Source of the DNA: Diacronema lutheri | Lineage: Eukaryota > Haptophyta > Pavlovophyceae > Pavlovales > Pavlovaceae | Length of the DNA: 64,000 nucleotides | Direction: 5' to 3' | Assembly (NCBI GenBank): GCA_019448385.1 | Contig: JAGTXO010000064.1 | Span: forward strand, 1 to 64,000 | Shown here: one piece after another, positions 7,021 to 62,176 of the stretch | Layout: each line of letters opens with the position of its first letter | Position numbering within the stretch: the stretch's first letter is position 1 | Translations under genes and position numbers: made by a program | The notes under the pieces: model-generated | What the model was told of the DNA's origin: nothing | The model's database searches: none | What the model saw: the letters and a program-made list of their open reading frames with translations, nothing else

Positions 7021-7093
7021 GTCACAGCGTAGGGAGAACGCAGCAAAGGGAGAAGGGAGAACCGAGAACATTGTTACGGAGCGAGAGAGGTGC

Positions 7094-7169
7094 GCGGACA
7101 TGTGGCGTTCGCCCGACACGTCTCGGCGGCTGCGGACATGTGGCGTTCGCCCGACACGTCTCGGCGGCT
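7094..7169 (+). repeat. 38-bp tandem duplication carrying the start codon
   Basis: The segment gcggacatgtggcgttcgcc and its continuation is present twice back to back (7094-7131 and 7132-7169). Each copy contains an ATG reading MWRSPDTSRRL. Only the second ATG (7138) is in frame with the nucleoside hydrolase; the first (7100) is in another frame. Confidence 0.9.
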
Positions 7170-10100
7170 GGATGTGGCGGTTGTCACCGACGCAGGCCCC
7201 GACCCGGACGACGTGAAGGCGCTGCTCGTGCTTGCGATGGCGCACCGCAGCGGCCGCATCCGCCTCGCCGCCGTGGTCGCGAATGGTGGTGGCCAGCCCG
7301 GGCTGCGCGCGCAGCTCATGCGGCTCCTCCTCAATCGTATCGGCGAGCTGGGCGTGCCGGTCGGCGTCGGCTCACTCGGCGTCGCGCTGGCCGAGCAGCC
7401 GCACGAGTGCGCGCTGCGTGGCTTCGCCGCCGTCGACCCGTCGCGCCTGCTCGACGGTCCTGCGCTCCTCTTGCGGACGCGTGTGCGCGCCGCGCCGCGC
7501 TCGGTCGCTGTGCTGCTCATCTCGGGGCTGCGCGACTTTGCGGACGTGGTGCTCGCGCAGCCGGGGCTGGTGCAGCGCAAGGTGCGCGCAGTTGCCATCC
7601 AGGGCGGCCTCGTGCCCGACGCTGCCGCGCCCTTCGGCTTCGCGCCCGACACGTCGCAGAACAATGCGTTCGATCCGGCCGCGGCCGCCGCCGTCGTCTA
7701 CAACTTTTGCTTCGCGCAGGGCATCCGGATGAGCTTCGTCAGCCGCGACGCGGTGCCGGTGCGCTGCACGCGCGCTGCACGATCTTGCGCGCGCGCACGC
7801 GGCGCGTGCCTGCCACCCTCTCATCCCGCCGCACCGCCCTGCGGGCATCCCCGCGCGCCCCTGTCGTGCGTCTACGCGTGCGCGCGCCGGTGCACGTTGG
7901 CGTGGGCGCGCAGCTGCTGCCGATGCAGCTCGCGCGCTCTTTCGCCGCGCGCACCAAGTCGGAGGTGCTGCGCTACCTCGCCACAGTTCCTCGGCCTGGC
8001 GGGCCTATGGAAGTAGCTGTGTGCCGGCCAGCTGCCCGCGCGCTGCGACAAGGCGTGGTACTTTGCGACGTTCTGCGGCATCGACGGCGCCGAGTTTGAG
8101 CGCAGGGCGCTTTGCGAGCTCGACGAGAGCGCCGATGTGCTCGGCTTTCTCAACGGCTTCGTCAAGCCGTATGACGGTGCGTTTGTTTGCAAAGGCCGAT
8201 GTGCTTGGCTTTCTCAACGGCTTCGTCAAGCCGTATGACGGTCCGTTTGTTTGCAAAGGCCCTTGCCGGCCGCGTTCGCTGCGCACCTCCGACTTGTTCA
8301 CCTTCCCGGCGCGGTGCGTTCACCATGCCGTGCGTTTGTTCAGCATGCCCGACCTTGCCGGTCTTGCGTGGCGCTTTGCATGCCGTTCACCATGCCGTGC
8401 GTTTGTTCACCGTGCCCGACCTTGCCGGTCTTGCGTGGCGCTTTGCATGCCGTTCACCATGCCCAGCCCTCTGCCCGTGGCCCACCTCCTGCCACGCAGT
8501 GATCGCGGCGATGACCGTGCTGCCGACGACGGCGGGCTGGTTCTCGCCCGCCGCCGAGGTGATGGTGAACGGCACGGCGCACCGGCTGCTGCTCCGCGCC
8601 GAGCACACGATCAACGTGCGCTCGGTGCACAACCTGCTGCGCGAGACGTACCACTCGGTCGCGATCCTCGACGCCGACCCGAGCACACCGCGCCGCGTCT
8701 CGTCGCGCTTCTGCCTGCTCGGCGCGCGCGCGCGCGCCGGCGCGGCCGTGATCCCGGGCGGCCGGGCTTCGCGCGCCGGCGCGGCCGTGATCCCGGGCGG
8801 CGCAAGCCCGGCGCGCAAAGCGCCGCGCGGTGCGGCGAGCGACTTGACGGCCGACGCGTTCCGCGTGCTGCCGCCGAACGACAGCCCACAGGTCTCGGCC
8901 ACACGCCACGCCGCGGCCACGCGCCGCCACTTCCCTCGCGCCGGCGCGCAGCGCCGCGTGCTGCCGTCCGCGCGCTCCTCCGACTTGCGCCACTCGCGGG
9001 CGATGGAGGCGGAGCAGCTGCGCTCATCCGTAACCGTCGTCCCGCGCCCCTCCGCCGTAACCGTCGTCGAGCTGCTCCACGCCGACCGGCTGCGCTCAAC
9101 CGACGGCGCGACGTCTGACGAGCTCACCGCCGAGCTGCTCGCGCAGTCCGTCGCCGCGGCGCGCGTGCGGCAGACGGTCGTGATGCTGCGCGTGCTCGCG
9201 CTCGCGGTGCCCGTGTGCGCGGCGACGCTCGTGCTCGCGCTCGCGACGAGCACGTCCGTGGCCGCCAGCGTGGCGGAGGGTGAAGGTGGTCACCAGCTCG
9301 ATTCGACGCCGATGCGCGCGTCAGTCATCGCCTTTGACTACGCGCGCATTGTGTTGATCTCGATTGGTTACGGCGTCACGGGGAACCTGATCACGCTCTG
9401 CTTCCAGCCCGTGCCCGAGCACCGCACGCGCATGATCGGCGCCATGCTTTTTGGCGACTTCGTCATCGTCGGCGCAGCCGTGCCGTTCGCCCTGGCGGTC
9501 GCGCGCCTCGCGCCCGGCCTGTGGGCGGGCTGGCTCGCCGGCGATGCGCTCAACGCGGACGCGCTCGTCGACGCGCTCGCCTCGCTGCTGCAGGTTGCGT
9601 CGAACGCCATCGTGCTCGTGTGCCGGTGCGTGTGGCTCTGGCGGTACCGGACGGACGCGCAGCGACTGTTGCCCGCAAAGTGGAGAAGCCTCGCCCTCCT
9701 GTACTCAGGCATTGCGCTCGCAAGCACGGTCACGTTCATCGGCAGTGCGTCAAGCGGCAGCCTGCGCGACACGTTCAGCGCCGAGGGCGTTGAGCTCGGC
9801 TTGCTCGCCGCCTTCTTTGTCTTCTTGTCGATCCCGGTCAACGCGCTCTTCGCCGCCTTCGCCGCGTCGCCGCGGCTGCATCGGCGCGCGCAGGCGCTGA
9901 TCGCGCGACCGGGCAGCGGGATGCAGGGCGTCGTCGCGTCGCTCCCGCCGCTCGTCGGCTACGGCTCGGCCAAGGGCGAGCGGAGCGCGACCGAGCTGCA
10001 CGCCGAGGCGCGCACGGCGCTGCGCGGCGTGGTGCTCGACGCCGCCGGGCTCGACGCGGTGGGCAAGGCGTGGGCGGCGGTCGACGCCGCGCGGCCGCAC

Positions 10101-11144
10101 GTTGGCGCCCGGCTGGCCGCGGCAAGAAACCTGGAGAGCCCAACGCAAACCGGGCTTCCTGCCGAGCCGCGCGTCGCCGCGCGTAGTCCGGAGGGCCGCC
10201 GCTCCGTGCGCTTGAGCTTGAGCGAGCTCGCGCGCACGCTTCCGCCCGCACTCTGGCGCGATCCAAGCGACACGCGCAAAGCGGCTGCCGACGACGCGTG
10301 GCACAACGGTGCGCAGGCCGCCGCCCTCGCCGACGAGCGCGACGAGCTGCTCGGTGAGCTTGCGCGCACGCACGCGGTGGCGGTGGGCACCTACGACTGC
10401 TATGTCGTGCACGGCGCGGACGAGGCGCGGCTCAAGCTCGCTGCTCTGCGCCAATTCGCGAGCGATTTTGAGCAGGCCAAGGGCAGGCCGCCCGTCGCAT
10501 TCATCGGCAGCCTCTGCGACCCGCCGCCAGCGCGGCAGCCGCAGCCGCTCGTGGCGAAAACGAGCCACGCCTTCCCACCCGCGCGCACCGGCCACGAGCG
10601 CGAAGGCGGCGGTGGCCGCAGCGGTGGCGGCGGTGGAGCAATCCGCGCCCTGTGCAGCTGCGTTCGCGAGCGCGCGTCGCGTGCGTCGGCCGCGTCCGAG
10701 CCGCGGGCTGATGCCGACAACGATGGCGCACACGGCGCCGTGCGCCGCGACGCGGCGACGCGCTCGCTCGGCCACCTGCCCGTGCGGCTGGCGCGCTCGT
10801 CGCAGCTGCTCGTCCTCGCGTCGCCATCGCTCTTCGAGCGGCTGTGGCCGACGATGGAGATCTTCATCTGGTGGTTGACGGGCGGCGGGCAGGACATGGT
10901 GCGCGTGCTGCCCGTCGTCGCCGACGAGCGCGGGCGCGGCGCGCTCCTTGCAGCCGTCGATGCGTTCCACGTCATGTACTGCCACGAGCCACGCGCTAGC
11001 AATCGGCGGCTCATTTGGCGGCTGGTCGAGATCGCGTCCGCTTCCGCGTACAACGACTCGGTGCGCGCGCTTTACCCGGCGCTTATCGACGAGCTCGCGC
11101 TGCTGGCAGAATCGGAGGGCGAGGGCGACGCAAGAGCGAGCTGA
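7138..11144 (+). pseudogene. Nucleoside hydrolase / membrane / TIR-like fusion, copy 1 (broken in the hydrolase part)
   Basis: Exon 1 (7138-7758) encodes an inosine-uridine nucleoside hydrolase-type domain with the Asp-rich metal motif DAGPDPDDVK and later NNAFDPAAAAAV. The second exon starts at 7914, and a further exon at 8500 runs to the stop. Compared with copy 2 (51.3-60.7 kb), the frame slips near 7983 (YLAT to QFLGL) and a TAG sits at 8014-8016 where copy 2 has Asn. The reading frame otherwise continues to the donor at 8177. The last exon holds about seven hydrophobic segments (9180-9890) and a C-terminal domain from TYDCYVVHGADEAR to FERLWPTMEIFIWW. That domain matches the TIR-like end of copy 2 but lacks its Cys. 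Either the gene is decaying, or two sequence errors exist; a shorter protein starting in the 8500 exon may still be made. Confidence 0.6.
8131..8460 (+). repeat. Two tandem duplications inside one intron
   Basis: A 64-bp unit covering the end of the coding exon (VLGFLNGFVKPYD) plus the splice donor is repeated at 8131-8194 and 8195-8258; in the second copy the donor gtgcg has become gtccg. A second 67-bp unit (8321-8387, 8388-8454, plus a stub) follows. The next exon starts after the cag at 8499, so both duplications are intronic apart from the first copy of the exon end. Confidence 0.85.
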
Positions 11145-48295: not shown

Positions 48296-49125
48296 CGAGG
48301 GGAGAGACAATAAGGCGGAGGCTCGGTCCCCACCCGCCCACCCGCATCGCCCCCTGAAGCTCGGTCATGCACCTGCCGTGCACCTGCCGTGCACCTGCCG
48401 TGCACCTGCCGTGCACCTGCCGTGCACCTGCCGTGCACCTGCCGTGCACCTGCCGTGCACCTGCCGTGCACCTGCCGTGCACCTGCCGTGCACCTGCCGT
48501 GCACCTGCCGTGCACCTGCCGTGCACCTGCCGTGCACCTGCCGTGCACCTGCCGTGGCCACGGGCACCGCCGCGCGCACCTCGTGGATCGCGCCGTCGGG
48601 TCCGACCGTCGCGCGCAGCAGAGGCGCGAGCGCGCGGAATGCCTCGCCGAGCGCGGCGCGGACGGGCGGCGCGCTCGCGGGCAAGAAGAGGTCCTGCCGG
48701 AACCCGTATGTGCCGGGCCCGCGGCAGTTGACGCCACCGAAGCGCGCGCCGAACGGCACGTCGCCGCGATCGACGTCCGCCTTCGCCGTTTCGACCTCGG
48801 CGTTGATGTACGCGAGGAGCGTGTCGGCGGTGGGCTGCGAGAGCACGCGCGAGACGCCAATGCACCCTTGCCGCGCCATGTACCCGCCGAGCTCGCCCTC
48901 CGTCCTCGCGAGGCCATCGAGTGACGTGCGCACGAGCGCGCCGACGCCGCCCGTGCGCACGCCGATGAGCTCGCGCTCCTCGCGGACGGCGAGCGCCTCG
49001 GCGTTGGCGGCGGCCATCGCCTCCATCGCGCGCTGCAGCGGCCCCGCCGGCCGCACCGCCGCGCCGCGCGTGGCGACGGCCAGCGAGAGGCCGACCACGA
49101 CGCGCGCCACGCGGAATGCCGCCAT
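47709..49125 (-). CDS. 2-oxoglutarate/Fe(II)-dependent dioxygenase (phytanoyl-CoA hydroxylase-like) with leader
   Basis: Exon 1 runs from the ATG at 49125 to about 48562 and exon 2 from 48176 to 47709, about 343-346 residues. The N-terminus (FRVARVVVGLSLAVATRG) is a leader. The iron-binding facial triad is visible: QCVHADTIV gives the HxD pair, and RLLHCGRAN the distal His. The Arg that would hold 2-oxoglutarate is in SAKRRVLFYF. GMGHTVFLPRTH is typical of the PhyH family. The donor of the single intron is ambiguous: GTGGCC at 48561 or GCAGGT at 48552 both keep frame, and the second starts the 11-bp minisatellite. The start codon is 46 bp from that of the divergent aminotransferase. The substrate is unknown. 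Confidence 0.85.
48367..48555 (-). repeat. 11-bp minisatellite at the dioxygenase splice donor, 17 copies
   Basis: On the plus strand the unit is cacctgccgtg, perfectly repeated. In the gene's sense it reads ggcaggtgcac. The array abuts the last exon 1 codons (VPVAT), whose bases acggcaggtgcac are already the first unit. Two G runs (about 48197-48211 and 48268-48295) fill the rest of the intron. Confidence 0.95.
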
Positions 49126-49171
49126 CGCTGCACTCGATTCCGTTCTGGCCTTTTCCCTCGGCCCCGCCACG
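49126..49171. promoter_or_regulatory. 46-bp spacer between two divergent start codons
   Basis: The dioxygenase ATG (minus, 49125) and the aminotransferase ATG (plus, 49172) face away from each other over 46 bp containing ttctggccttttccctcg. Both promoters must lie here or inside the opposite gene, unless one true start is further in. Confidence 0.5.
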
Positions 49172-51170
49172 ATGGCGCGAGCCGGACGGCGCGCTGCGCG
49201 TGCTGCCGCGCTCGCGGCGCTGCTCTGCGGTGCGGCGGCGACGGCGCGCGCGCCGCGCGCGCGCGCGCGCATGTTGAGCACGGGTACGAGCGCCGGCCCG
49301 TGGCTCGCGGGCGGCGCGGGCTGGGAGACGAGCCGCGCGCCCGGCGAGCGCGCGCCGCGCGAGTTTCGGCTCGAGCGCTTCTTCGCGCGGTACGAGTTTT
49401 CGGCGCGCCACCTGCTCTGCTGCTCCGACGTCGAGCCGCTCCGCCTGGCCGAGCTGCTCGCGCTCGCCGAGGCGTCCGCGACGACGGGCGACGCGCTCGA
49501 GCTCTGGCACGACCTCTCGCTCGGCTACACGGAGACGAAGGGCCACCCCGCGCTCCTCGCCGAGATCGCCGAGCACTACGCGACGGGCACGAGCGCCGAG
49601 CACGTCCTCGAGTGCGCGCCGCAGGAGGGCATTGCTCTCGCCCTCGCCGCGCTCGTGCGGCCAGGCGACGCCATCGTGACCGTTTCGCCCGCCTACCAGT
49701 CGCTCGCCGAGCTCGCGCTCACGGCGGGCGCGGCGTGCTACGCGTGGCGCGCGCGCGGCGGCGGCGCGGACGGGCCGATGCACTTCCACGTCGACGACCT
49801 GCGCGCGGCGGTGCAGCGCGCGACCGCCGAAAAGGGCCGCGCGCCCATGCTGATTGTGACCAACTTTCCGCACAACCCAACCGGCGCCATGCTGAGCGCG
49901 CGCGAGTGGGCGGAGGTCGTCACGCTCGCGCGAGAATCCGGCAGTTGGCTCCTCTCGGACGAGATGTACCGCGGGCTCGAGCGCGGGGCGGGCGAAACCG
50001 TCGAAACCGTCGAAACCGTCGAAACCGTCGAAACCGTCGAAACCGTCGAAACCGTCGAAACCGTCGGCGCGGACGCGGCGGGCGGGGCGGGCGGCGCGGC
50101 AGACGCGCGGCTGCCCGCGGCGGTCGACGTGTACGAGCGCGGCATCTCGCTCTCCGGGTTGTCCAAGGCGCGCGCTTGGGCCAGCTGCGTTGTCCGCAGC
50201 CCACAGACCCCAGCTGCCTGCCCCCTCCCTCCCCCCCCCCGATCTTTCCCCTTTCCCTGCCCAGCCCCGAGCCACCTGCCTGCTACTGCCCCCCGCCCCC
50301 CCCCCCCCCCCCCCTCCTCCCCCCGATCTTTCCCCTTTCCCAGCCCAGCCCTGAGCCACCTGCCTGCTATTGCCCCCTCCCTCCACCCCCCCCACCTTCC
50401 CCTCCCCATCCCCTCTCACCCTTCCCCTCTTACACCCCCTCCCCCCCCCCCCCCCCCCCCTCAGGTGTACGGCCTGCCCGGCCTGCGCATCGGCTGGCTC
50501 GCATCACGCGACGCGCCCTTCCTGCGCCGCGTCGCCGCCCTCCGCGACTACACGACCATCTGCTCCTCCGCTCCCTCCCAAATCCTCGCCCTCGTCGCCA
50601 TGCGTAACCGACACGCGCTGCGCACGCGCGCGCGCCGTCTCGTCGACGCGGGCGAAACGGCCGCCGCCGCCTTTTTTGAAAAGCGCGCGGACCTATTCGT
50701 TTACCAGCCGCCCGCCGCGGGTCCGATCGCTTTTCCGGCGCTCCGCGCGGCGGGCGCGCGAGCGGCGGACGCGGAGAAGTTTTGCGAGGCGCTTGTCCGC
50801 GAGCACGGTGCGTAACTGCTGCGCCCCCCCCCCCCCCCCCCCCCCCCCCTGCCCCCCCCCCCCCCCCCCTGTCCCCCCCCCTCCCCTCCCCCCCTTCCCG
50901 TACCGGTTCATCCCCCCCCCCCCCCCCCCCCCCCCCCCCCGCCCCCCTCCCGGCCAGCCTCATGCCGCACGCCCGCCGTTCGCCCTGCCGCGCCCGCGCC
51001 GCGCTGCGCGGCGTCGGTCGCGGCGCGCCATCGGGTGCGGCGTGGCAGGCATCTTGCTGCTGCCCGCGATCGTGTACGGCGACGGCTTTGACGGCGCGCA
51101 CTTCCGCGTCGGGCTGGGCCGACGCGACTGCGCTGCGGTTTTCGAGCTGTGGGATCGTGCGTTGGGATGA
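49172..51170 (+). CDS. PLP-dependent aminotransferase (class I/II, fold type I)
   Basis: Three exons (49172-50167, 50465-50807, 51049-51170) give 486 residues. After a leader (RAAALAALLCGAAATARAP) the fold type I landmarks follow: ECAPQEGIALALAAL, VTVSPAYQSLAELA, VTNFPHNPTGAML, LLSDEMYRGLE, then SLSGLSK with the PLP lysine (about 332) as the last codon of exon 1, VYGLPGLRIGWLAS and, in exon 3, HFRVGLGR. The lysine-end intron has a GC donor (AAG then GCGCGC). The TTICSSAPSQILA stretch resembles kynurenine-aminotransferase-like and amino-acid-modifying branches, but the substrate is unknown. An insert of eight Glu-Thr-Val triplets lies between DEMYRGLE and the lysine, where the fold has a loop. 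The stop is 117 bp from the opposing stop of the fusion gene copy 2. Confidence 0.87.
49993..50064 (+). repeat. In-frame 9-bp repeat, eight copies (Glu-Thr-Val)
   Basis: The unit gaaaccgtc occurs eight times without a mismatch inside exon 1 of the aminotransferase. It keeps frame and adds 24 residues to a surface loop. Confidence 0.95.
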
Positions 51171-51287: not shown

Positions 51288-54200
51288 TCATGCCGCATAG
51301 AGCGAGGGCAGCCCCGGCGACTTGCCGATGGCCGCACCTGCGCGCGCGTCGGGCGTTCCGCCGTCCGCCGCTCCCGCGCCCGCGCCCGCGCCCACGCCCA
51401 TCTGTGCGCCCGCGCCCGCGCCCTGATCACCGCGGCTCTCGCCGGCGAGCGGGTCGACCCGCGAGCCGAAGCGCAACCCCGCCTGCCGCACCGGCGGCAA
51501 GAAGTCGCGCACCTTGGCGTTAAAGTTGGCGACCGTCGCGAGCTCGACGGCCCGTTGGATCCGGTCGGTGACCGCGGGCAACGTGCCAACGGCGTTGATG
51601 ACGTGGAACGCGTCAAAGGCGGCGACGATGTCCTGGCACGAGCGCGCGTCCTTGGCCGCGATCTCCACCTCCACATCCTCCGGCCGTCCGCCCATCGCTG
51701 ACCACACGTAACACTCCATTGCACACCTGCGCGGGCGGTGACGGTGACGGTCACGGTGACGGTGACGGTCACGGTGACGGTGACGCAGTGACGGTGACGC
51801 GGTCGGTCCGAGGGCGAACGGTCAAAGGGGCCAAGTGCGCGCGCGACCGCCGCACCGCCGCCATGCCACGCCCCGCCTCGCCCTGCCACGCCCGCCATGC
51901 CCCGCCCCGCCCCGCCCCGCCCGCCATGCTACGCCCCGCCATGCCACGCCCCGCCGCGCCCCGCCGAGCGCGTGCGCGCGCACCAAAGCCTCTCGGGCAG
52001 CGTGGGCCCCGCGAGAAGGAGAAGGCGGTGGCACTTGGCCTGGTAGACCGGTAAGTGGGCGAGCAGCTGCACCGTCGAGAGCGACATGTCGGCGCACAGC
52101 TGGTTGAGCCAAACCGTCGGAGGCCGCTGGTGCCGCGCCTCAAAGGCCGCGGCCCACGTGCAGAGCGCCACCGCGCGGTCCTTGGCGTTGTCGTCGAACG
52201 AGTGGACGACGTACGCGTCGGCGTGCGTGCGCTGCGAGGCGTCGACGTCGCTCGTGTCCGGCGCGAACATCTCGAGCAGCGCGGGCGGCCGGCTCGACGA
52301 CGCCGTCATCGAAGCAAGCGACGTGCGCCCACAGCTGCCGCCATCGCCCGAGCAGAAGCTGCCATTGCCGCCATTGCCGCCATTGCCGCCATCGGCCGAG
52401 CAAAAGCTGCTCCCCGCCGACCGACTGCCACGGCGTAACGGCATGAGCGCACGTGACGCGCTCGCGAGCAGCGCGCCGCTGTAACTGCCGCTGCCGCCGC
52501 CGCTGCCGACGCCGCCGCCACCACCGCCCGCCGCCGCCGCCAACGCCGACGGCCTCGCCGACGGCGCGGCGAGCGAGCCGCCGCTCGCGCCGAGGCGCAG
52601 CTGCGTGAACGCGCCGCTCGCCTCCGCGCGCGCGCGCGAGCCGCCGCCGTCGTCGGCGTCGGCGCCGTCGCCGCCGCCGCCGGCGACGGACCCGCCGCGC
52701 GCGCCGCTGGCGTCGGCGCTCGCGATCACGATGGGGACGATGCGCCCGTTGTCGTGATTGGCCGTGCGCACGCCGCCGCACGCGCCGGCAGCCGCCGCCC
52801 CGCCGCCGACGCCGCCGCCGCCGGCGCCGCCGCCGGCGCCCGCGCCCGCGCCGCATGCGTCGCCCACGCCGCCCACGCCGCCCGCGCCGCCCGCCGCCGG
52901 CGCCTCGCCCGCTCCGTCGTAGCCCGCCGCCGAGACGCGCGGCGCGACGAAGCGCGCGTGCGTGTCGAGCAGGCCGCCGCGCACCAGCTCGCGCCTCGCG
53001 GCCGCGTCGAGGACAAAGGCGCGGAACGAGCGCGCAGCCTCGGCCGCGAGCTCGTCCGGCTCGTACACGCCGCGCCTCGAGCCGAAGCCGAGCAACGCAG
53101 CGATCGACGCGTCGGTGCCCCGCGCGACGAAGCAGCGCGCGGCGAGCGCGCCCGCCGCGTTGCGCGCGCTCTCGAGCAGGAAGAGCGCGCCGACGACGAG
53201 GAGGAGCGCGCCCGTCGTCACGCGCAGCGCGAGGAGGCGCGCGGGCCACAAGGGCAGCAGGCCCGCCCACGCCGCGCGCGCGACGAGCTGCAGCCTCTGC
53301 AGACCTGCCGCAATCCCCGTCACGCATTGAAGCCGCCACGTCCATCGAACGATGGTGGCCGGCCGTGCGCCGCCCGCGCACGATGGCGGCCAAAAGCATC
53401 GGCGGTGCGCCGGCCGCCATCGTGCGCGCCCGCCATACTCTGAAGAGGCGGGCGTCGCGATGGCGAGGACGAGCACTGCGAGCGCGAGCGGCCCGAGCGC
53501 GAGCAGCAGCAAGCTCTCAAACGCGACCGACGCGGCGCGGTGCGCGCCCGCGCCCGCGCGCGCGTCGCCGTGGCCGCACGCCGCCGCCGCGCCGACGCCG
53601 ACGCCGACGCCGACACCGATGCTCACGCCGCCGTTGCCGTGCGCGATTGTCTCGCAGCCGCTCACGAGCGTCTCGAGGGCGCCCGAGCGCGGCGCGAAGG
53701 GCAACGCGCCGCGCCACCACATGAGCACGAACTGCACGAGGCGGAACGCGGACAGCGCACCCGCCGCGCAGCGCAGCCGCCATCGTGACGCGTGCACCGT
53801 CGCGAGCAGCGCGCAGCCGCACAAGATCGCCGCGAGCGTGCACAGCGCGTACGCCCCGTCGCGCGCCGCGCCGCTCTCGTCCATGAAGGCGGCGCGCGCC
53901 GCCTCGACGCGCGCCGCGAGCGCGTCGCCGTCGGCGCCCTCCCGCGCGTACAACTCCGCCGCGACGACCGCCACCGAGTCGGCCACCTGCGCGTCGGCGT
54001 CCGCCCAGACCTGCGCGCGCGCGCGGAGGGAGGGGGAGGGGCAGTCCGAGGGGCAGTCCGGGAGGAACAGTCCGGGGGGATGCAAGACGCAAGGGGTCCG
54101 GTCCGGCTGAGCGCGGGCGTGGTGCAGGGCTCGGCGAGGAAAAAGGGCAAGGGGAGGAGGAGGGGAGGGGGGGAGCAGGGCGCGCCCGCGGCGGCCGCGC

Positions 54201-57200
54201 GGCGCGCGCGCCCGCTCGCCGGCGCGCGGGTCGCGCGGGCCGCGCGGCACGCACGGCGAACGCAACATCCGCGAGCCAGCCCGCAAACGTGGTCAGTCCG
54301 ATAGACAGTCCGAGGGCGAGCGCGACAGTCGCGGCGAAGCGCTGCCGCAGCTGCGCGGCGCTGACGGCCTCGACGAGCATCGCCTCGATCTCGGCGCCCG
54401 TCAGCACCGCCGCGTGGTACCGCGCCCCGCCGCCGCCACGCCTGCTCCCGCCACCGCCACCACCGCCACCGTCGCCGCCGCCGCCGTCGTCGCCGCCGCT
54501 GCCGCCCGCAGTGCCGCCGAGCAGAGGCGACGGCGCCGACGACGGCGGCCTGCTGCCCGCGCCGAGGCCGGCCACGTCGCCGCCTTCGTCCGCGTCGTCG
54601 AGCGCGGCGCTGAGCTCCATCGACGACGAGCGCGTGAGCCGCCGCCCGCGCACGGCAAAGGCCGCCGCCTCCGACGTGCCGACGAATTTAAAAGAGGCGC
54701 GCAGCGACGCCTTCGCCGCGCCCATGCGCGGCACCGGACGCGCGCGCGGTCCGGGCGCGCTGCGCCCGGACCGCCGCTCAGCGCCGTGGCTGGACTTGCG
54801 CGCGCGCGTCGACGCGCCGTCGGCGGCGCCGCCGTGCGACACGCCGAGCTTGCGCGCGCGCGCGATGGTGGCAAAGACGACCTCGTGGTAGCTGCGCGCG
54901 GGAAAAGCGGTTACGGGGTTTCGTCATTGTTTGACCACGTGGAAGGGGGAAGGGGTCAGGGAGAAGGGGGGAAGGGGGGAAGGGGAGGGCAGGCTGCATG
55001 CAGCGCACGTCTCGCGCAGGAGGTTGAGGACCGAGGGATGGGGAAAAGGGAAGGGGAAAGGGAGAAGGGGGGAAGGGGGGAAGGGGGGAAGGGGGGAAGG
55101 GGGGAAGGGGAGGGCAGGCTGCATGCAGCGCACGTCTCGCGCAGGAGGTTGAGGACCGAGGGATGGGGAAAAGGGAAGGGGGAAGGGAGAAGGGGGGAAG
55201 GGGGGAAGGGGGGAAGGGGGGAAGGGAAGGGCAGGCTGCATGCAGCGCACGTCTCGCGCAGGAGGTTGAGGACCGAGGGGTGGGGAAAAGGGAAAAGGGA
55301 AGGGAGAAGGGAGAAGGGAGAAGGGGGGAAGGGGGGAAGGGGAGGGCAGGCTGCATGCAGCGCACGTCTCGCGCAGGAGGTTGAGGACCGAGGGATGGGG
55401 AAAAGGGAAGGGGAAAGGGAGAAGGGGGGAAGGGGGGAAGGGGGGAAGGGGGGAAGGGGGGAAGGGGAGGGCAGGCTGCATGCAGCGCACGTCTCGCGCA
55501 GGAGGTTGAGGACCGAGGGATGGGGAAAAGGGAAGGGGGAAGGGAGAAGGGGGGAAGGGGGGAAGGGGGGAAGGGGGGAAGGGAAGGGCAGGCTGCATGC
55601 AGCGCACGTCTCGCGCAGGAGGTTGAGGACCGAGGGATGGGGAAAAGGGAAGGGAGAAGGGAGAAGGGGGAAGGGAGAAAGGGGGGAAGGGGGGAAGGGG
55701 AGGGCAGGCTGCATGCAGCGCACGTCTCGCGCAGGAGGTTGAGGACCGAGGGATGGGGAAAAGGGAAGGGAGAAGGGAGAAGGGGGGAAGGGAGAAGGGG
55801 AAGGGGGGAAGGGGAGGGCAGGCTGCATGCAGCGCACGTCTCGCGCAGGAGGTTGAGGACCGAGGGATGGGGAAAAGGGAAGGGGGAAGGGAGAAGGGGG
55901 GAAGGGGGGAAGGGGGGAAGGGGGGAAGGGGAGGGCAGGCTGCATGCAGCGCACGTCTCGCGCAGGAGGTTGAGGACCGAGGGATGGGGAAAAGGGAAGG
56001 GAGAAGGGAGAAGGGGGGAAGGGGGGAAGGGGGGAAGGGGAGGGCAGGCTGCATGCAGCGCACGTCTCGCGCAGGAGGTTGAGGACCGAGGGATGGGGAA
56101 AAGGGAAGGGAGAAGGGAGAAAGGGGGGAAGGGGGAAAGGGGGGAAGGGGAGGGCAGGCTGCATGCAGCGCACGTCTCGCGCAGGAGGTTGAGGACCGAG
56201 GGATGGGGAAAAGGGAAGGGAGAAGGGAGAAGGGGGGAAGGGGGGAAGGGGGGAAGGGGAGGGCAGGCTGCATGCAGCGCACGTCTCGCGCAGGAGGTTG
56301 AGGACCGAGGGATGGGGAAAAGGGAAGGGAGAAGGGAGAAAGGGGGGAAGGGGGAAAGGGGGGAAGGGGAGGGCAGGCTGCATGCAGCGCACGTCTCGCG
56401 CAGGAGGTTGAGGACCGAGGGGTGGGGAAAAGGGAAGGGGGAAGGGAGAAGGGAGAAGGGGGGAAGGGGGGAAGGGGGGAAGGGTAGGGCAGGCTGCATG
56501 CAGCGCACGTCTCGCGCAGGAGGTTGAGGACCGAGGGGTGGGGAAAAGGGAAGGGGGAAGGGAGAAGGGGGGAAGGGGGGAAGGGGGGAAGGGGAGGGCA
56601 GGCTGCATGCAGCGCACGTCTCGCGCAGGAGGTTGAGGACCGAGGGGTGGGGAAAAGGGAAGGGAGAAGGGAGAAGGGGGAAGGGGGGAAGGGGGGAAGG
56701 GGGGAAGGGGAGGGCAGGCTGCATGCAGCGCACGTCTCGCGCAGGAGGTTGAGGACCGAGGGGTGGGGAAAAGGGAAGGGGGAAGGGGGAAGGGAGAAGG
56801 GGGAAGGGGGGAAGGGTAGGGCAGGCTGCATGCAGCGCACGTCTCGCGCAGGAGGTTGAGGACCGAGGGATGGGGAAAAGGGAAGGGGGAAGGGAGAAGG
56901 GGGGAAGGGGGGAAGGGGGGAAGGGGGGAAGGGGAGGGCAGGCTGCATGCAGCGCACGTCTCGCGCAGGAGGTTGAGGACCGAGGGATGGGGAAAAGGGA
57001 AAAGGGAAGGGAGAAGGGAGAAGGGAGAAGGGGGGAAGGGGGGAAGGGGAGGGCAGGCTGCATGCAGCGCACGTCTCGCGCAGGAGGTTGAGGACCGAGG
57101 GATGGGGAAAAGGGAAGGGGGAAGGGAGAAGGGGGGAAGGGGGGAAGGGGGGAAGGGGGGAAGGGGGGAAGGGTAGGGCAGGCTGCATGCAGCGCACGTC

Positions 57201-59797
57201 TCGCGCAGGAGGTTGAGGACCGAGGGATGGGGAAAAGGGAAGGGAGAAGGGAGAAGGGGGAAGGGAGAAAGGGGGGAAGGGGGGAAGGGGAGGGCAGGCT
57301 GCATGCAGCGCACGTCTCGCGCAGGAGGTTGAGGACCGAGGGATGGGGAAAAGGGAAGGGAGAAGGGGGGAAGGGGGGAAGGGGGGAAGGGGAGGGCAGG
57401 CTGCATGCAGCGCACGTCTCGCGCAGGAGGTTGAGGACCGAGGGATGGGGAAAAGGGAAGGGGGAAGGGAGAAGGGAGAAGGGGGGAAGGGGGGAAGGGG
57501 GGAAGGGGAGGGCAGGCTGCATGCAGCGCACGTCTCGCGCAGGAGGTTGAGGACCGAGTTGACGTTGACCGTGTGCTCGGGGTGCAGCAGCAGCAGGTGC
57601 GTCGTGCCCAGGTGCCTGGCGCGGGGCGGAGGGTGGACGCGGGTAAGGCCGTTGGGAAGAGGGTGAGCATATTGGAAGGCGGGATTTTAAACGAGGCGTG
57701 GTGCTGCCTGCGTCACGCGGCCGCGCCCTCGCCGGACATGCGACGCGGCACCGCGCGCGGGCGCGCGGGCGCGCGGCGTGGCTGCGTGTTCGCGAGCGGC
57801 GGCGGGGGCGGGGGCGGCGGCGGCGCGCGCACGTGTGATGCGCCGTGTCCATCGCAGTGAAGAGGTGCTCCGTCTGGGGGAGCACCGTCATGAACGCGAG
57901 CACGTCGTACCTGCCGGGGGCGAGGAGGGGGGGGGGGGGGGGGGGGCGGGTGGGCGGGGGGGGGGGGGGGGGGGGGGCGGGCGGGCGGGCGGACGGCGGA
58001 CGGCGGACGGCGGGCGGCGGGCGGCGGGCGGCGGGCGGCGGGCGGCGGGCGCGAGGCGGGCACAAACGGGCGTGGGTGGCGCGTGGCGACGGCGTGGCAG
58101 GACGCGAGGGCATGGCGCAAGGCGAAATTTAGATCTTGGGGGGTTTGTTTGGTTTTGGGGTGAGAAGGGGGGCAGTCCGGGAGGGGGGTGGAGGGGGCAG
58201 TCCGGGGGGGGGGGGTAGGTTTGGGCGGCGCACGGTTTGACGAAGCCGTTGAGGTGGCGCACGATGGCGGTGTGCTGGCCGAGGAGCGCGTCGAAGCTGC
58301 GCGCGTGAAACTCGGCCGACGGCACGCCGCAGAACGTTTTAAAATACCACTGCACGTGCAGAACAGGGCAGCAGGCGCCGCGTTTTTAAAAAGGGGGGTG
58401 CGAAAGCGGACAGGATGGGAAGGGGAAGGGAAGGGGGGGGGGGGGGGGGGGGGGGGGGGGAAGCGAGGGGGCAGCAACAGGGCGCAGGGTGACGGGTGAG
58501 AGGGTGACGGGTGAGAGGGTGACGGGTGACGGGTGACGGGTGAGAGATGGGAAGGAGGCAGCGACGTCACGCACCGCCGGTGGAATATCCCCCGTCTCAC
58601 TCCCCCCTCCCCCTTTCCCCGTCTCACCTGCTCCCCCCCCCCCCCCCCCCCCCTCCCCTTTCCCCGTCTCACTCGCGTTCACCGCGCAGACGCCGGCGGC
58701 GCGGCGCGCGCTCGCCGCCCCCACCACCGCCCGCGCCGCACCGCCCCCGCGCGCGCGCGCACCTGCTTCGAGCAGCGCGGCGGCAACTTGCCCCGGCACA
58801 GGTTCTGCCACAGCCCCTCGAGGCCGAGGAACTGGGCGGTTGCGAGGTAGGACATCACCGGACACGCAGTCCGGTCGGCGAAGGAGCGGGCGAGCTGTGC
58901 GCGGCGGGCGGCGGCACAGCGGTGCGCGGAAGACGCCGGGCGGGGGTGGGGGGGAAAAGGGGGGGGGGGGGGGGGGAAGGGGGGGGGGGGGGGGGGGATA
59001 AGAATGGCGACAAGGGGGAGGAGGGAGGGGAAGGGGGGGGGGGGGGGGGGGGGGGGGGCAGACGTGACGCACCTGCATGGGCAGCATGGGCACGGCATTC
59101 CTGCTTGTAACCGTCATGCGCAGCGGCGCGCTGAAGCAAAAGTCATACACCGAGCGAGCGGCGTCGAGGTCGAACATGTTGTTCACCGACCTGCGAGGTG
59201 AGGGGGTTGGGTTTGGGGGGTCGCGTTTGGGTTCGCGTTCGGGTTGGTTGTAGGGCTTAGGGTCAGGATGAGGGTTAGGGTTAGGGTTAGGGTTCGCGTA
59301 GGGGATGGGATCGGAAGGGGTAAAGGGGTTCAGGTTCGCCAAGGTGTGGTTGCGGGCAAATAGGGTGTGGCTTGGCGATCGTGTGGCTTGGGTGGGCGAG
59401 GGCGAGGCCGCTACGCGAGGCGGAGGGACAGGCGAGGCGGTCCGGCGAAAGTCCGGTGCACGCCAGCCTCCACCGAACGAAGCGCACGCCAAAGGCCCAC
59501 CCGCCCCCGCCCGCCCCCCCCCCCCCCCCCCCCCCCCCCCCACACACAATTTCAAAAATGTCGCGGCGGTGGCGCGCGCGCGCGCGCGCGCGCCGCACGT
59601 GTCCGGCTCCCAGCCCGCGACGCCGTCCGGACTCGGCTGCAGCCCTCCCTGAATGGCGACGGTGTGCACCTGCGCCGCCGCCGCGCGCCGCGCAACGATT
59701 TGCGGAGGTCGCCTAGTTAGTGTCACGCCGCGCTCGCGTGGCGGATGGCGGCATGCATGCACGCAGTCAACAGCGCCTGCCCCTTTAACGCCCTCCA

Positions 59798-59882
<85 letters not shown>

Positions 59883-59905
59883 CAGCCGCAGCCGCGCGTG
59901 TCTCC

Positions 59906-59947
<42 letters not shown>

Positions 59948-60717
59948 ACACACATACAGCCCCACCCTCGTCCCTCACACCACCCCCCTCCCCCTCCCCT
60001 CCCCCCCCCCCCCCCCCCGACAGCACCGCCCCGCCGCACCTTCGCGACGACGAGCGCGCCATGCGCTGCGATCATGTCGGCAAAGTCGCGGAGTGACGAA
60101 ATCAGCACCACGCGGAGGCTTCGCGCCGGCACGCGCCGTAGCACGTCGGCGAAGAGGGCGGGCCCGTCGACGAGGCGGTCGGTGCCCGTCTCGTCGTACC
60201 CCGCGAGCGAGTACTCGTGCGGCATCGGCACGTACGCCTTGCCCGCCGAGCCGATGCCGACGGGCACGTCGGCGCACGACACGTGGTCGAGAAGGCCGCG
60301 CGCGAGCCGCGCGCGCTGCACCTCCTGGTGGCCGCCGTTGGCGATGACGGCGCGCAGCGTGAGCAGCCGCTGCTTGTGCAGCGTCGCCGCGATGAGCAGC
60401 GCCTTGGCATCGTCCGGGTCCGGGCCGACGTCGGTAACGATCAGCACGTTGAACGCGGGCAGCCGCCAGCCGCTGCTCGCGCCCACCGCGCGCAGGCCGG
60501 TGAGCGCCGCAGCGAGCGCGCCGGGCGCCTGCGGCGCGCGCAAGCGCTTGCGCGCCGTGCCGCTCGCGCCCGCGGCGGCGGCGTCGCCGCCGCCGCCGCC
60601 CGCGCGCGCCGCCGGCGAGTGCGGGCGCTCACCGCGCGCGAGGCCGTCGCGTGTCGCGCCGCCGTCGCGCGCGTCGCGCGTGGCGTCGGCGGGCTTGGCG
60701 GGCTGTGCGACGCACAT
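51288..60717 (-). CDS. Nucleoside hydrolase / membrane / TIR-like fusion protein, copy 2 (intact)
   Basis: Ten exons keep one frame: 60717-60040, 59669-59599, 59190-59073, 58894-58763, 58349-58234, 57910-57833, 57615-57532, 54891-54255, 54010-51984, 51726-51288; 1459 residues. Residues about 90-400 are an inosine-uridine nucleoside hydrolase-type domain: VTDVGPDPDDAKALL, VANG-like IANGGHQE, VLISSLRDFAD, VAIQGGLQP, NNMFDLDAARSVYDF, SRNAVPMLPMQ. Several hydrophobic segments follow (LGLSIGLTTFAGWLADVAF, LLLALGPLALAVLVLAIA, TTGALLLVVGALFLLES). The C-terminus (YVVHSFDDNAKDRAVALCTW, PPTVWLNQLCADM, LLLLAGPTLPERLWCAMECY) resembles TIR domains. In those, the Glu of the WCxxE motif is the NAD-cleaving residue; here it is about residue 1318 and forms only after splicing. 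A continuous C-terminal exon 9 is assumed; an extra intron near 53.4 kb is possible. Confidence 0.72.
54955..57553 (-). repeat. Minisatellite of exon-end plus splice-donor copies filling a 2.6 kb intron
   Basis: Intron 7 of fusion copy 2 (57531-54892) consists of about 22 tandem units of about 103-126 bp. Each carries a fixed 41-bp core, ctgcatgcagcgcacgtctc plus gcgcaggaggttgaggaccga on the plus strand, and a variable purine run of gggaag/ggagaag blocks. The core is a copy of the last codons of exon 7 (VLNLLRET) and the donor GTGCGCTGCATGCAG; the 23rd and terminal copy is the real exon end. The acceptor cgcgcgcag at 54892 restores LLRETYHEVV, matching LLRETYHSVA in copy 1. Confidence 0.93.
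59271..59294. repeat. Short TTAGGG run
   Basis: Four tandem ttaggg units lie inside intron 2 of fusion copy 2, next to degenerate gggtt-rich sequence at 59200-59270. It is too short and internal to be a telomere. Confidence 0.85.
59800..59880. repeat. CA microsatellite
   Basis: About 40 CA dinucleotides with one CG interruption lie in intron 1 of fusion copy 2 and are followed by C runs at about 59909-59947 and 60001-60018. In the gene's sense these are G runs, unlike most introns in the window. Confidence 0.95.
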
Positions 60718-60968: not shown

Positions 60969-61110
60969 AAATGGAATACTATACTAACGGCTTTTGAACA
61001 GCTGCGAGGCACCGTGGTCCCCGTCGGCGCGGCGCGCGCCGGCGCGGCCGTGCCGGCCGGCAGCTTCGAAACGCCGGCTGCCTTGACGACGCCTGCCTTT
61101 GCCATCCAGG

Positions 61111-61806
61111 CTGCGCCCTCGCGCTCTGCTGGCCGCGCTCCGCGCGCCCCGCCGCCCCTGCCCATCGACTGCGCCGGCACCGCGAACAACGTACTTTTCG
61201 CCCCGGTCGGTGGGTTTGGGGGTGGCGGGGCGCGCGCGCACGGCCGCACGAGCGACGGCGGCGTGGCCTTCTCTACGACGAAACCTTCGCTTGCGACGGC
61301 TGCGCCCTCGCGCTCTGCTGGCCGCGCTCCGCGCGCCCCGCCGCCCCTGCCCATCGACTGCGCCGGCACCGCGAACAACGTACTTTTCGCCCCGGTCGGT
61401 GGGTTTGGGGGTGGCGGGGCGCGCGCGCACGGCCGCACGAGCGACGGCGGCGTGGCCTTCTCTACGACGAAACCTTCGCTTGCGACGGCTGCGCCCTCGC
61501 GCTCTGATGGCCGCGTTCCGCGCGCCCCGCCGCCCCTGCCCATCGACTGCGCCGGCACCGCGAACAACGTACTTTTCGCCCCGGTCGGTGGGTTTGGGGG
61601 TGGCGGGGCGCGCGCGCACGGCCGCACGAGCGACGGCGGCGTGGCCTTCTCTACGACGAAATCTTCGCTTGCGACGGCTGCGCCCTCGCGCTCTGCTGGC
61701 CGCGCTCCGCGCGCCCCGCCGCCCCTGCCCATCGACTGCGCCGGCACCGCGAACAACGTACTTTTCGCCCCGGTCGGTGGGTTTGGGGGTGGCGGGGCGC
61801 GCGTGC
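61111..61806. repeat. 189-bp tandem repeat, about 3.7 near-identical copies
   Basis: Units begin at 61111, 61300, 61489 and 61678 and differ by only a few bases. The length is 63 codons, so open frames run through on both strands. The plus frame gives APVGGFGGGGARAHGRTSDG per unit, and one minus frame gives PPTGAKSTLFAVPAQSMG. Neither resembles a known protein and neither has a clear ATG. The region 60970-62176 is bracketed by two copies of the 18-bp element in the same orientation. I call it a repeat and do not assign a protein. Confidence 0.8.
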
Positions 61807-62176
61807 GCGGCCACGCGGCCAGCATCGCGGCGCTTGCCACGCTGGCGGCGGGTGGCGGTGCGCTTCGCCGCGGCGACAGGGGGCTGCGACGCGGCGGGGA
61901 GGGCGGCGGCTCGCTGGCGGCGGGCGTCGCGCTCTGCAGCGGCGGCGGGCGGCTTGGCGACGTGGCAGGCGGCGGCTCGGGGGTGGCGGTCGTCGCCGAC
62001 GATCTTCGGGCCTCGGCGTGCGCGTGCGCGTCGGCCGGTGGTGTGATTGACGGCAGCCACCGGTGCGGCGGCGCGCGGGCGGCGGCGCGCGGTGGCTAGG
62101 CGCGTGTGGGCCTTTGGGCCTGCTCCGCCTGGCGCCTCGCTGCGCACTTCCTGACCCCATCTGTTGACCCGTCGGA

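Follow-up and report, generated by a model that had tools for sequence, protein, structure and literature searches.

According to Piechocki et al. (2018, PMC6019455), HopQ1/XopQ-like proteins (HLPs) form a clan of their own within the nucleoside hydrolase superfamily, and in HopQ1-like proteins the motif DXXXDXDD is reported to replace DXDXXXDD (Giska et al., PMC11685791). Algal HLPs, from Emiliania, Thalassiosira and Aureococcus, haptophytes included, have already been reported, and the words TIR, transmembrane and fusion are absent from the main text of that study (PMC6019455). Here we analyse a gene in a 64,000-nucleotide stretch of the haptophyte Diacronema lutheri (contig JAGTXO010000064.1, positions 1-64,000; hereafter the window, with a GC content of 74.2%), the predicted product of which joins an HLP-type nucleoside hydrolase (NH) domain, membrane segments and a TIR-like domain. 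The locus had been singled out by a model that saw only the sequence (hereafter the original prediction) and that proposed a membrane protein with two N-glycosidase activities on its ends.

Which substrate HopQ1/XopQ-like proteins act on physiologically is disputed, and the reason why pathogens facing TIR receptors carry them is unclear. According to a review, XopQ of Xanthomonas oryzae is inactive on common nucleosides, and its enlarged calcium site binds and closes around ADP-ribose, which was found there after co-crystallisation with cyclic ADP-ribose (PMC8910321). Elsewhere XopQ is credited with hydrolysis of 2',3'-cAMP/cGMP (PMC11685791), and 2',3'-cAMP hydrolysis is also mentioned in PMC9963460. 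Yu et al. are cited on X. euvesicatoria XopQ acting against signals made by plant TIRs in two papers, one of them PMC11685791. ADP-ribose and 2',3'-cAMP/cGMP are products of the TIR type.

Structure of the gene

The gene lies on the minus strand and is composed of ten exons, which form a frame of 1455 amino acids (aa) from the ATG at 60717 to the stop at 51288 with no internal stop codons; a GT donor and an AG acceptor are present at all nine introns. Junctions were placed by hand, guided by paralog sequence, and a further in-frame intron within exon 9 is possible. The features are as follows:

60040-60717, minus strand: exon 1, N terminus and start of the NH domain (from 60453), with DVGPDPDD at 60432-60409
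59599-59669, minus strand: exon 2, NH domain (VHTVAIQGGLQ...WEPDT)
59073-59190, minus strand: exon 3, NH domain, with SVNNMFD at 59189-59169
58763-58894, minus strand: exon 4, NH domain
58234-58349, minus strand: exon 5, NH domain
57833-57910, minus strand: exon 6, NH domain including the YD motif
57532-57615, minus strand: exon 7, end of the NH domain
54892-57531, minus strand: intron 7, 2.6 kb, filled with a minisatellite
54267-54891, minus strand: exon 8, linker and first hydrophobic segment (54338-54282)
51984-54010, minus strand: exon 9, further hydrophobic segments (53851-53180), the juxtamembrane block AALLGFGS (53101-53072), common to paralogs, a low-complexity linker and, from 52225 on, the TIR-like domain in its first half
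51288-51726, minus strand: exon 10, remaining half of the TIR-like domain, where WCAME is completed at 51714, followed by the C-terminal tail

In the predicted protein the NH domain spans aa 89 to about 430 (DVGPDPDD at aa 96-103) and the TIR-like domain aa 1230-1393, with WCAME (aa 1310-1314) joined over the exon 9/10 splice junction. Coordinates, exon number and domain positions were the same in the original prediction and in our analysis.

Profiles built from paralogs match the window exons in order. Removal of intron 7 yields the sequence LLRETYHEVV, in agreement with the stop-free frames of paralogs, which read LLRATYHEVV (L040/L041) and LLRETYHEVA (L045). Two separate genes split at this intron are thus ruled out at the sequence level, since the splice restores the paralog sequence and six of six same-frame paralogs that were fetched join both domains. 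Chance assembly of exons is excluded by the order of the paralog-profile matches and by a XopQ match spanning six exons. Most of the doubt about the introns is removed because stop-free single-frame paralogs hold both domains. One gene with one frame over ten exons, as originally proposed, is therefore borne out by the splice sites and the paralogs, and the architecture of NH domain, membrane segments and TIR-like domain in a single predicted frame can be regarded as established.

The minisatellite of intron 7 (54942-57558) has a period of about 117 and 22.8 copies. Its unit includes 33 bases identical to the end of exon 7 together with the splice donor; 23 exact matches were found, 22 of them intronic and one being exon 7 itself. 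Each copy in the intron is a potential donor, and the purine-rich stretch between the copies varies.

The NH domain

When the spliced NH domain of the window gene was compared with all PDB sequences, three XopQ entries were found with E-values of 6.3e-24 to 1.6e-22, followed by an ordinary hydrolase at 0.14. A profile of nine paralogous NH domains matched XopQ at 6e-39 and the best canonical nucleoside hydrolase at 2e-10. PDB entry 4kl0 we take to be XopQ. Entry 4p5f is named XopQ in an abstract.

The DXXXDXDD calcium motif is present in the window gene, in a second copy within the window (DAGPDPDD) and in eight of nine aligned paralogs. Counted by locus, it occurs at 11 of 15 (L005 and L040 being one gene); it is absent from L001, L004 and L042, while L002 is canonical. 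The calcium-site aspartates and the NN..D motif are kept in nearly all aligned members.

The original prediction had suggested profile searches for both end domains. The inosine-uridine nucleoside hydrolase profile (PF01156) matched with an E-value of 2.6e-7 and 31.0 bits, a score below the cut-off of 34.2. A nucleoside hydrolase-type fold at the N terminus is upheld. A canonical nucleoside hydrolase is ruled out by the altered motif, by the score below the Pfam cut-off and by the difference between the XopQ and ordinary hydrolase matches. By motif and by profile, the predicted domain belongs with the HopQ1-like proteins of the HLP clan.

A gene family in the D. lutheri genome

The genome (43,492,796 bases, 103 contigs) was searched with both end domains. 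PF01156 matches were found at 41 places, and the C-terminal domain of the window gene gave 150 scored places out of 176 candidates. At least 34 of the 41 NH matches have a C-terminal-domain match 2.1-4.8 kb downstream on the same strand; this pairing used 88 of the 150 C-terminal matches, and the remaining ones could only add pairs. By arithmetic, not by a run control, fewer than one such pair would be expected by chance for 88 matches in 43.5 Mb. For at least ten of the 34 pairs the listed open-frame lengths of the two domains are identical. Seven NH matches have no partner among the matches listed, two of these, L001 and L002, having the best Pfam scores of all. L002, with the canonical motif DTDCAIDD, has no C-terminal-domain neighbour among the matches listed; L001 carries neither motif.

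Six of the ten same-frame candidates were fetched (L040-L045), and in each of the six a single frame free of stops, at least 1125-1627 residues long, contains both domains. PF01156 matches L041-L045 independently. No gap was observed in the domain matches of L040-L043; the NH match is in two pieces in L044 and L045, as is the TIR match in L045, and in-frame introns are possible there.

The closest paralog (L046/L010, contig C11) shares 72% (NH domain) and 76% (TIR-like domain) identity with the window gene; alignment of the linkers is poor. It carries YAMME at the place of WCxxE. Nonsynonymous (dN) and synonymous (dS) distances between the two genes, calculated by the Nei-Gojobori method, were 0.24 and 0.52 for the NH domain and 0.17 and 0.73 for the TIR-like domain, values consistent with purifying selection on both ends.

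Across eight genes the NH and TIR distances are correlated (r 0.91; 1 of 5000 permutations as high), also without the near-duplicate L040 (r 0.79; 12 of 5000). Since their identities correlate in this way, the two ends have travelled together. Between older paralogs (pairs without L042 and without the close pairs of the window gene with L046 and of L040 with L041) the NH domains share 49-57% and the TIR-like domains 36-48% identity. In L042 (225-3599) the NH motif is lost (CPGESGDA), as is the TIR glutamate (WAVAL), and both domains still lie in one frame; this gene is a candidate double pseudo-enzyme. Contig C34 carries numerous C-terminal-domain copies on both strands (106957-595004), and the six that were aligned have His or Gln in place of Glu.

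The gene thus belongs to a large, lineage-expanded family of membrane proteins with dozens of copies in the genome. Expansion of the family and co-divergence of both predicted ends are well established by these comparisons. Both this family and the second copy inside the window had escaped the original prediction.

The C-terminal domain

A profile of ten bacterial TIRs (A3), which itself finds SARM1, Roq1, L6 and TLRs, served as a yardstick. In hhalign, the profile of the TIR-like family aligned with A3 in register over 77 columns (E-value 0.0039). The alignment begins at the first strand and ends at the W..E helix, and its register matches strands A, B and C and that helix. As a control, the NH profile compared with the same ten TIRs gave an E-value of 0.36. 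Trimmed alignments scored 20.1 (E-value 0.015; 1 of 300 column shuffles as high), and 17 TIRs with two more algal rows scored 21.7 (E-value 0.0066; 2 of 400). Combined, 3 of 700 shuffles reached the observed score; reversed profiles score 10-11 and NH pieces 11-14. Moreover, the NCBIfam TIR-like model FxsC was matched by one of 23 members (E-value 0.0011). Pfam TIR_2 was also matched by one of the 23, at 0.04, which alone is noise level because non-TIR Pfam matches rank beside or above it.

The WCxxE motif is complete in the window gene (WCAME), in L045 and in six of 23 aligned members. At the position of the TIR glutamate the 23 members have Glu (11), Gln (6), His (5) or Leu (1), a count that overweights one lineage since the C34 members, six with His or Gln, resemble one another closely. 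A review of plant TIRs ties this glutamate to NADase and cyclic nucleotide monophosphate (cNMP) synthetase activity, and the neighbouring cysteine to 2',3'-cNMP synthesis (PMC9153377). The window domain keeps both residues. Taken together, these alignments make it probable that the C-terminal domain is homologous to TIR.

Membrane segments and topology

Hydropathy analysis of the window protein revealed about five segments (aa 611-911), and simple hydropathy of six paralogs gave four to six hydrophobic rows at the equivalent place. How many passes there are is uncertain because of this range and because the segment at aa 761-779 is Gly/Val-rich and of low complexity; membrane segments between the end domains, as originally proposed, are nevertheless borne out. 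In L040 and L041 the NH domain starts some 10-20 residues past the likely start codon, with no obvious signal peptide by eye, and the domain is therefore placed in the cytosol. An even number of passes would bring both ends to that side, where they probably lie.

A proposed mechanism and its alternatives

We propose that the gene encodes a membrane protein in which a multi-pass anchor links a HopQ1/XopQ-like NH domain to a TIR-like domain, and that the TIR-like domain makes a nucleotide signal that the NH domain binds or removes. We give this reading a probability of roughly 0.38. Upon activation, TIR-like domains would cluster at the membrane and convert NAD+ or nucleic acid into a signal, possibly 2',3'-cyclic nucleotides or derivatives of ADP-ribose. 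An NH domain, whether in the same molecule or in one next to it, could then bind this product in its calcium site and either degrade it, making the signal self-limiting, or be switched by it. Paralogs without the TIR glutamate may serve for sensing or as scaffolds. We place maker and handler in one protein because the TIR-like domain keeps Glu and Cys and because the NH clade is credited with binding or breaking such products. From this arrangement we infer catalysis, the coupling of maker and handler with its direction, be it eraser or sensor, and any part played in defence. The two N-glycosidase activities originally envisaged are not supported as stated, since the NH domain is HopQ1-like with an altered calcium motif and only 11 of the 23 C-terminal domains have the glutamate; N-glycosidase activity of the NH domain is doubtful because X. 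oryzae XopQ is reported to be inactive on nucleosides, yet binds ADP-ribose.

Several observations weigh against this proposal. The TIR search suggested by the original prediction gave no Pfam TIR match for the window copy at E-values up to 1; of the proposed TIR-like C terminus with WCxxE, the motif stands and the homology is probable. Among the 23 members the best Pfam match is non-TIR (Neuropep_like, 0.026; non-TIR range 0.026 to 0.16), the hhalign probabilities of the TIR alignments are low (8.6%, 3.0% and 5.7%), and the TIR-like family profile found no TIR in the PDB. An AlphaFold2 model of the TIR-like domain of the second copy, with the window-only sequence as input, reached a predicted local distance difference test score (pLDDT) of 39.6, too low to be interpreted. 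The TIR glutamate is missing from 12 of the 23 aligned members, L042 and L004 have no calcium motif, and L042 has lost the catalytic motifs of both ends. Reports on XopQ disagree on one reaction. The number of passes may be anything from four to six, so the same-side topology of the ends can only be inferred. Finally, a genome search with the membrane region alone found only itself and no other copy, which indicates that this region diverges fast.

The strongest alternative, though itself unlikely, is a ligand-gated sensor in which the NH domain is a catalytically idle receptor of ADP-ribose or another nucleotide and controls the membrane segments or the TIR-like domain without removing the signal. 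The inactivity of X. oryzae XopQ on nucleosides and its closure around ADP-ribose (PMC8910321) fit such a receptor, as do the better conservation of the NH domain than of the TIR-like domain between older paralogs and the frequent loss of the TIR glutamate. However, the calcium-site aspartates and NN..D retained in nearly all members fit an enzyme at least as well, and hydrolysis by XopQ is claimed in other papers (PMC11685791, PMC9963460).

Less likely still, the C-terminal domain would be a non-catalytic adaptor of TIR fold, the receptor working by oligomerisation and the NH domain processing an unrelated nucleoside or nucleotide. The scarcity of complete WCxxE motifs and of the glutamate among the aligned members agrees with this, and adaptor TIRs of animals likewise have no glutamate (PMC9153377). 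Against it stand the complete motif kept in the window copy, L045 and six aligned members, and the apparent purifying selection on the TIR-like domain in comparison with the nearest paralog, though that paralog has YAMME.

The least probable alternative, a nucleotide-metabolism membrane enzyme with another Rossmann-like domain and a convergent WCAME, draws on the missing Pfam TIR match, the modest profile scores, the low hhalign probabilities and the equally ranked non-TIR matches in other members, but is countered by the strand and helix register, the gap between observed scores (20-22) and those of reversed profiles, the rarity of shuffles scoring as high, and the FxsC match.

If maker and handler are indeed coupled, the protein might represent a new class of algal membrane immune receptor, with a TIR signal maker and a HopQ1/XopQ-type binder or eraser as one molecule; we regard this extension as rather doubtful. 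If true, it would add a large candidate immune-receptor family in haptophytes, of which no description was found in the literature searched. In that case the HopQ1-like fold would originally have served to handle nucleotides made by TIRs, and the effectors of plant pathogens that have this fold would be an old TIR-partner domain that now stands alone.

Second family member and neighbouring features

The window contains a second, diverged member of the family at 7.0-11.1 kb, on the strand opposite to the main gene:

7033-8013, plus strand: NH exon with DAGPDPDD; aa 50-255 of the frame match the NH profile (E-value 1e-68)
8175-11141, plus strand: NH tail, hydrophobic region and TIR-like domain

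The middle stretch of its NH domain was not located. Its TIR-like domain (10392-11081) is broken by an insertion or an in-frame intron and has WPTME at the place of WCxxE.

Beyond the 5' end of the main gene (61087-62046), a 189-bp unit is repeated in tandem and in frame, about four times as judged by eye, and codes for a Pro/Gly-rich segment on either strand. On the plus strand, convergent with the gene, a frame at 48314-50815 resembles, by eye, a pyridoxal phosphate-dependent aminotransferase (NFPHNPTGAMLS, SLSGLSKARA).

Relatives outside the genome

Scans of viral contigs and prokaryote genomes, each resting on one or two short peptide patterns, confirmed no relatives. A search of plasmids with one TIR-like domain gave no match; the same kind of search in phages returned five records with an E-value of 0.1, covering 47% of the query and bearing unrelated annotations. 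In PHROGs, three of four proteins had no match and L045 had one, to an unknown family (0.037). In PADLOC, two of 23 members match the undescribed model PDC-M02B (best E-value 1.8e-4).

No description of the NH, membrane and TIR-like combination was found in open-licence papers, in line with the original view that the architecture is not from described families. The words TIR, hydrolase and defence are absent from the genome paper of D. lutheri NIVA-4/92 (PMC8379373). The parts are known already, and the combination is without a description in the literature searched.

Comparison with known systems

HopQ1/XopQ-like proteins are by far the best sequence match, and DXXXDXDD is common to them and to the window NH domain. 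Bacterial HopQ1/XopQ effectors have, to our knowledge, no membrane or TIR part, whereas here the NH domain forms the N-terminal part of a multi-pass membrane protein that has a TIR-like domain at its other end. HopQ1-type folds have also been reported from the secretomes of gall-forming fungi and protists in a 2025 paper, the relevant parts of which do not mention TIR (PMC12503489). Canonical inosine-uridine nucleoside hydrolases (PF01156) are of the same superfamily, but the window calcium motif is altered and the best canonical structure matches poorly. A natural fusion to a TIR-like domain, at dozens of places in one alga, would be independent evolutionary evidence that the HopQ1-like fold deals with TIR products, and offers a direct way to test whether it does.

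Plant TIR receptors and TIR enzymes (RPP1, Roq1, L7, RBA1, SARM1) resemble the C-terminal domain in the WCxxE helix with Cys and Glu and in the alignment register. NB-ARC/LRR or SAM parts occur in plant TIR receptors and SARM1-type families, whereas the window protein has no Pfam NB-ARC, LRR or SAM match and carries membrane segments and an NH domain instead; its similarity to TIR profiles is marginal.

Systems have been described in which a TIR is coupled to a separate domain that handles its product, for example Macro or SLOG (PMC9503650). The arrangement proposed here would be alike in logic, with a TIR maker and a domain that reads or removes ADP-ribose-type products, but here both share one polypeptide and the partner is of the NH fold, where those systems employ other folds.

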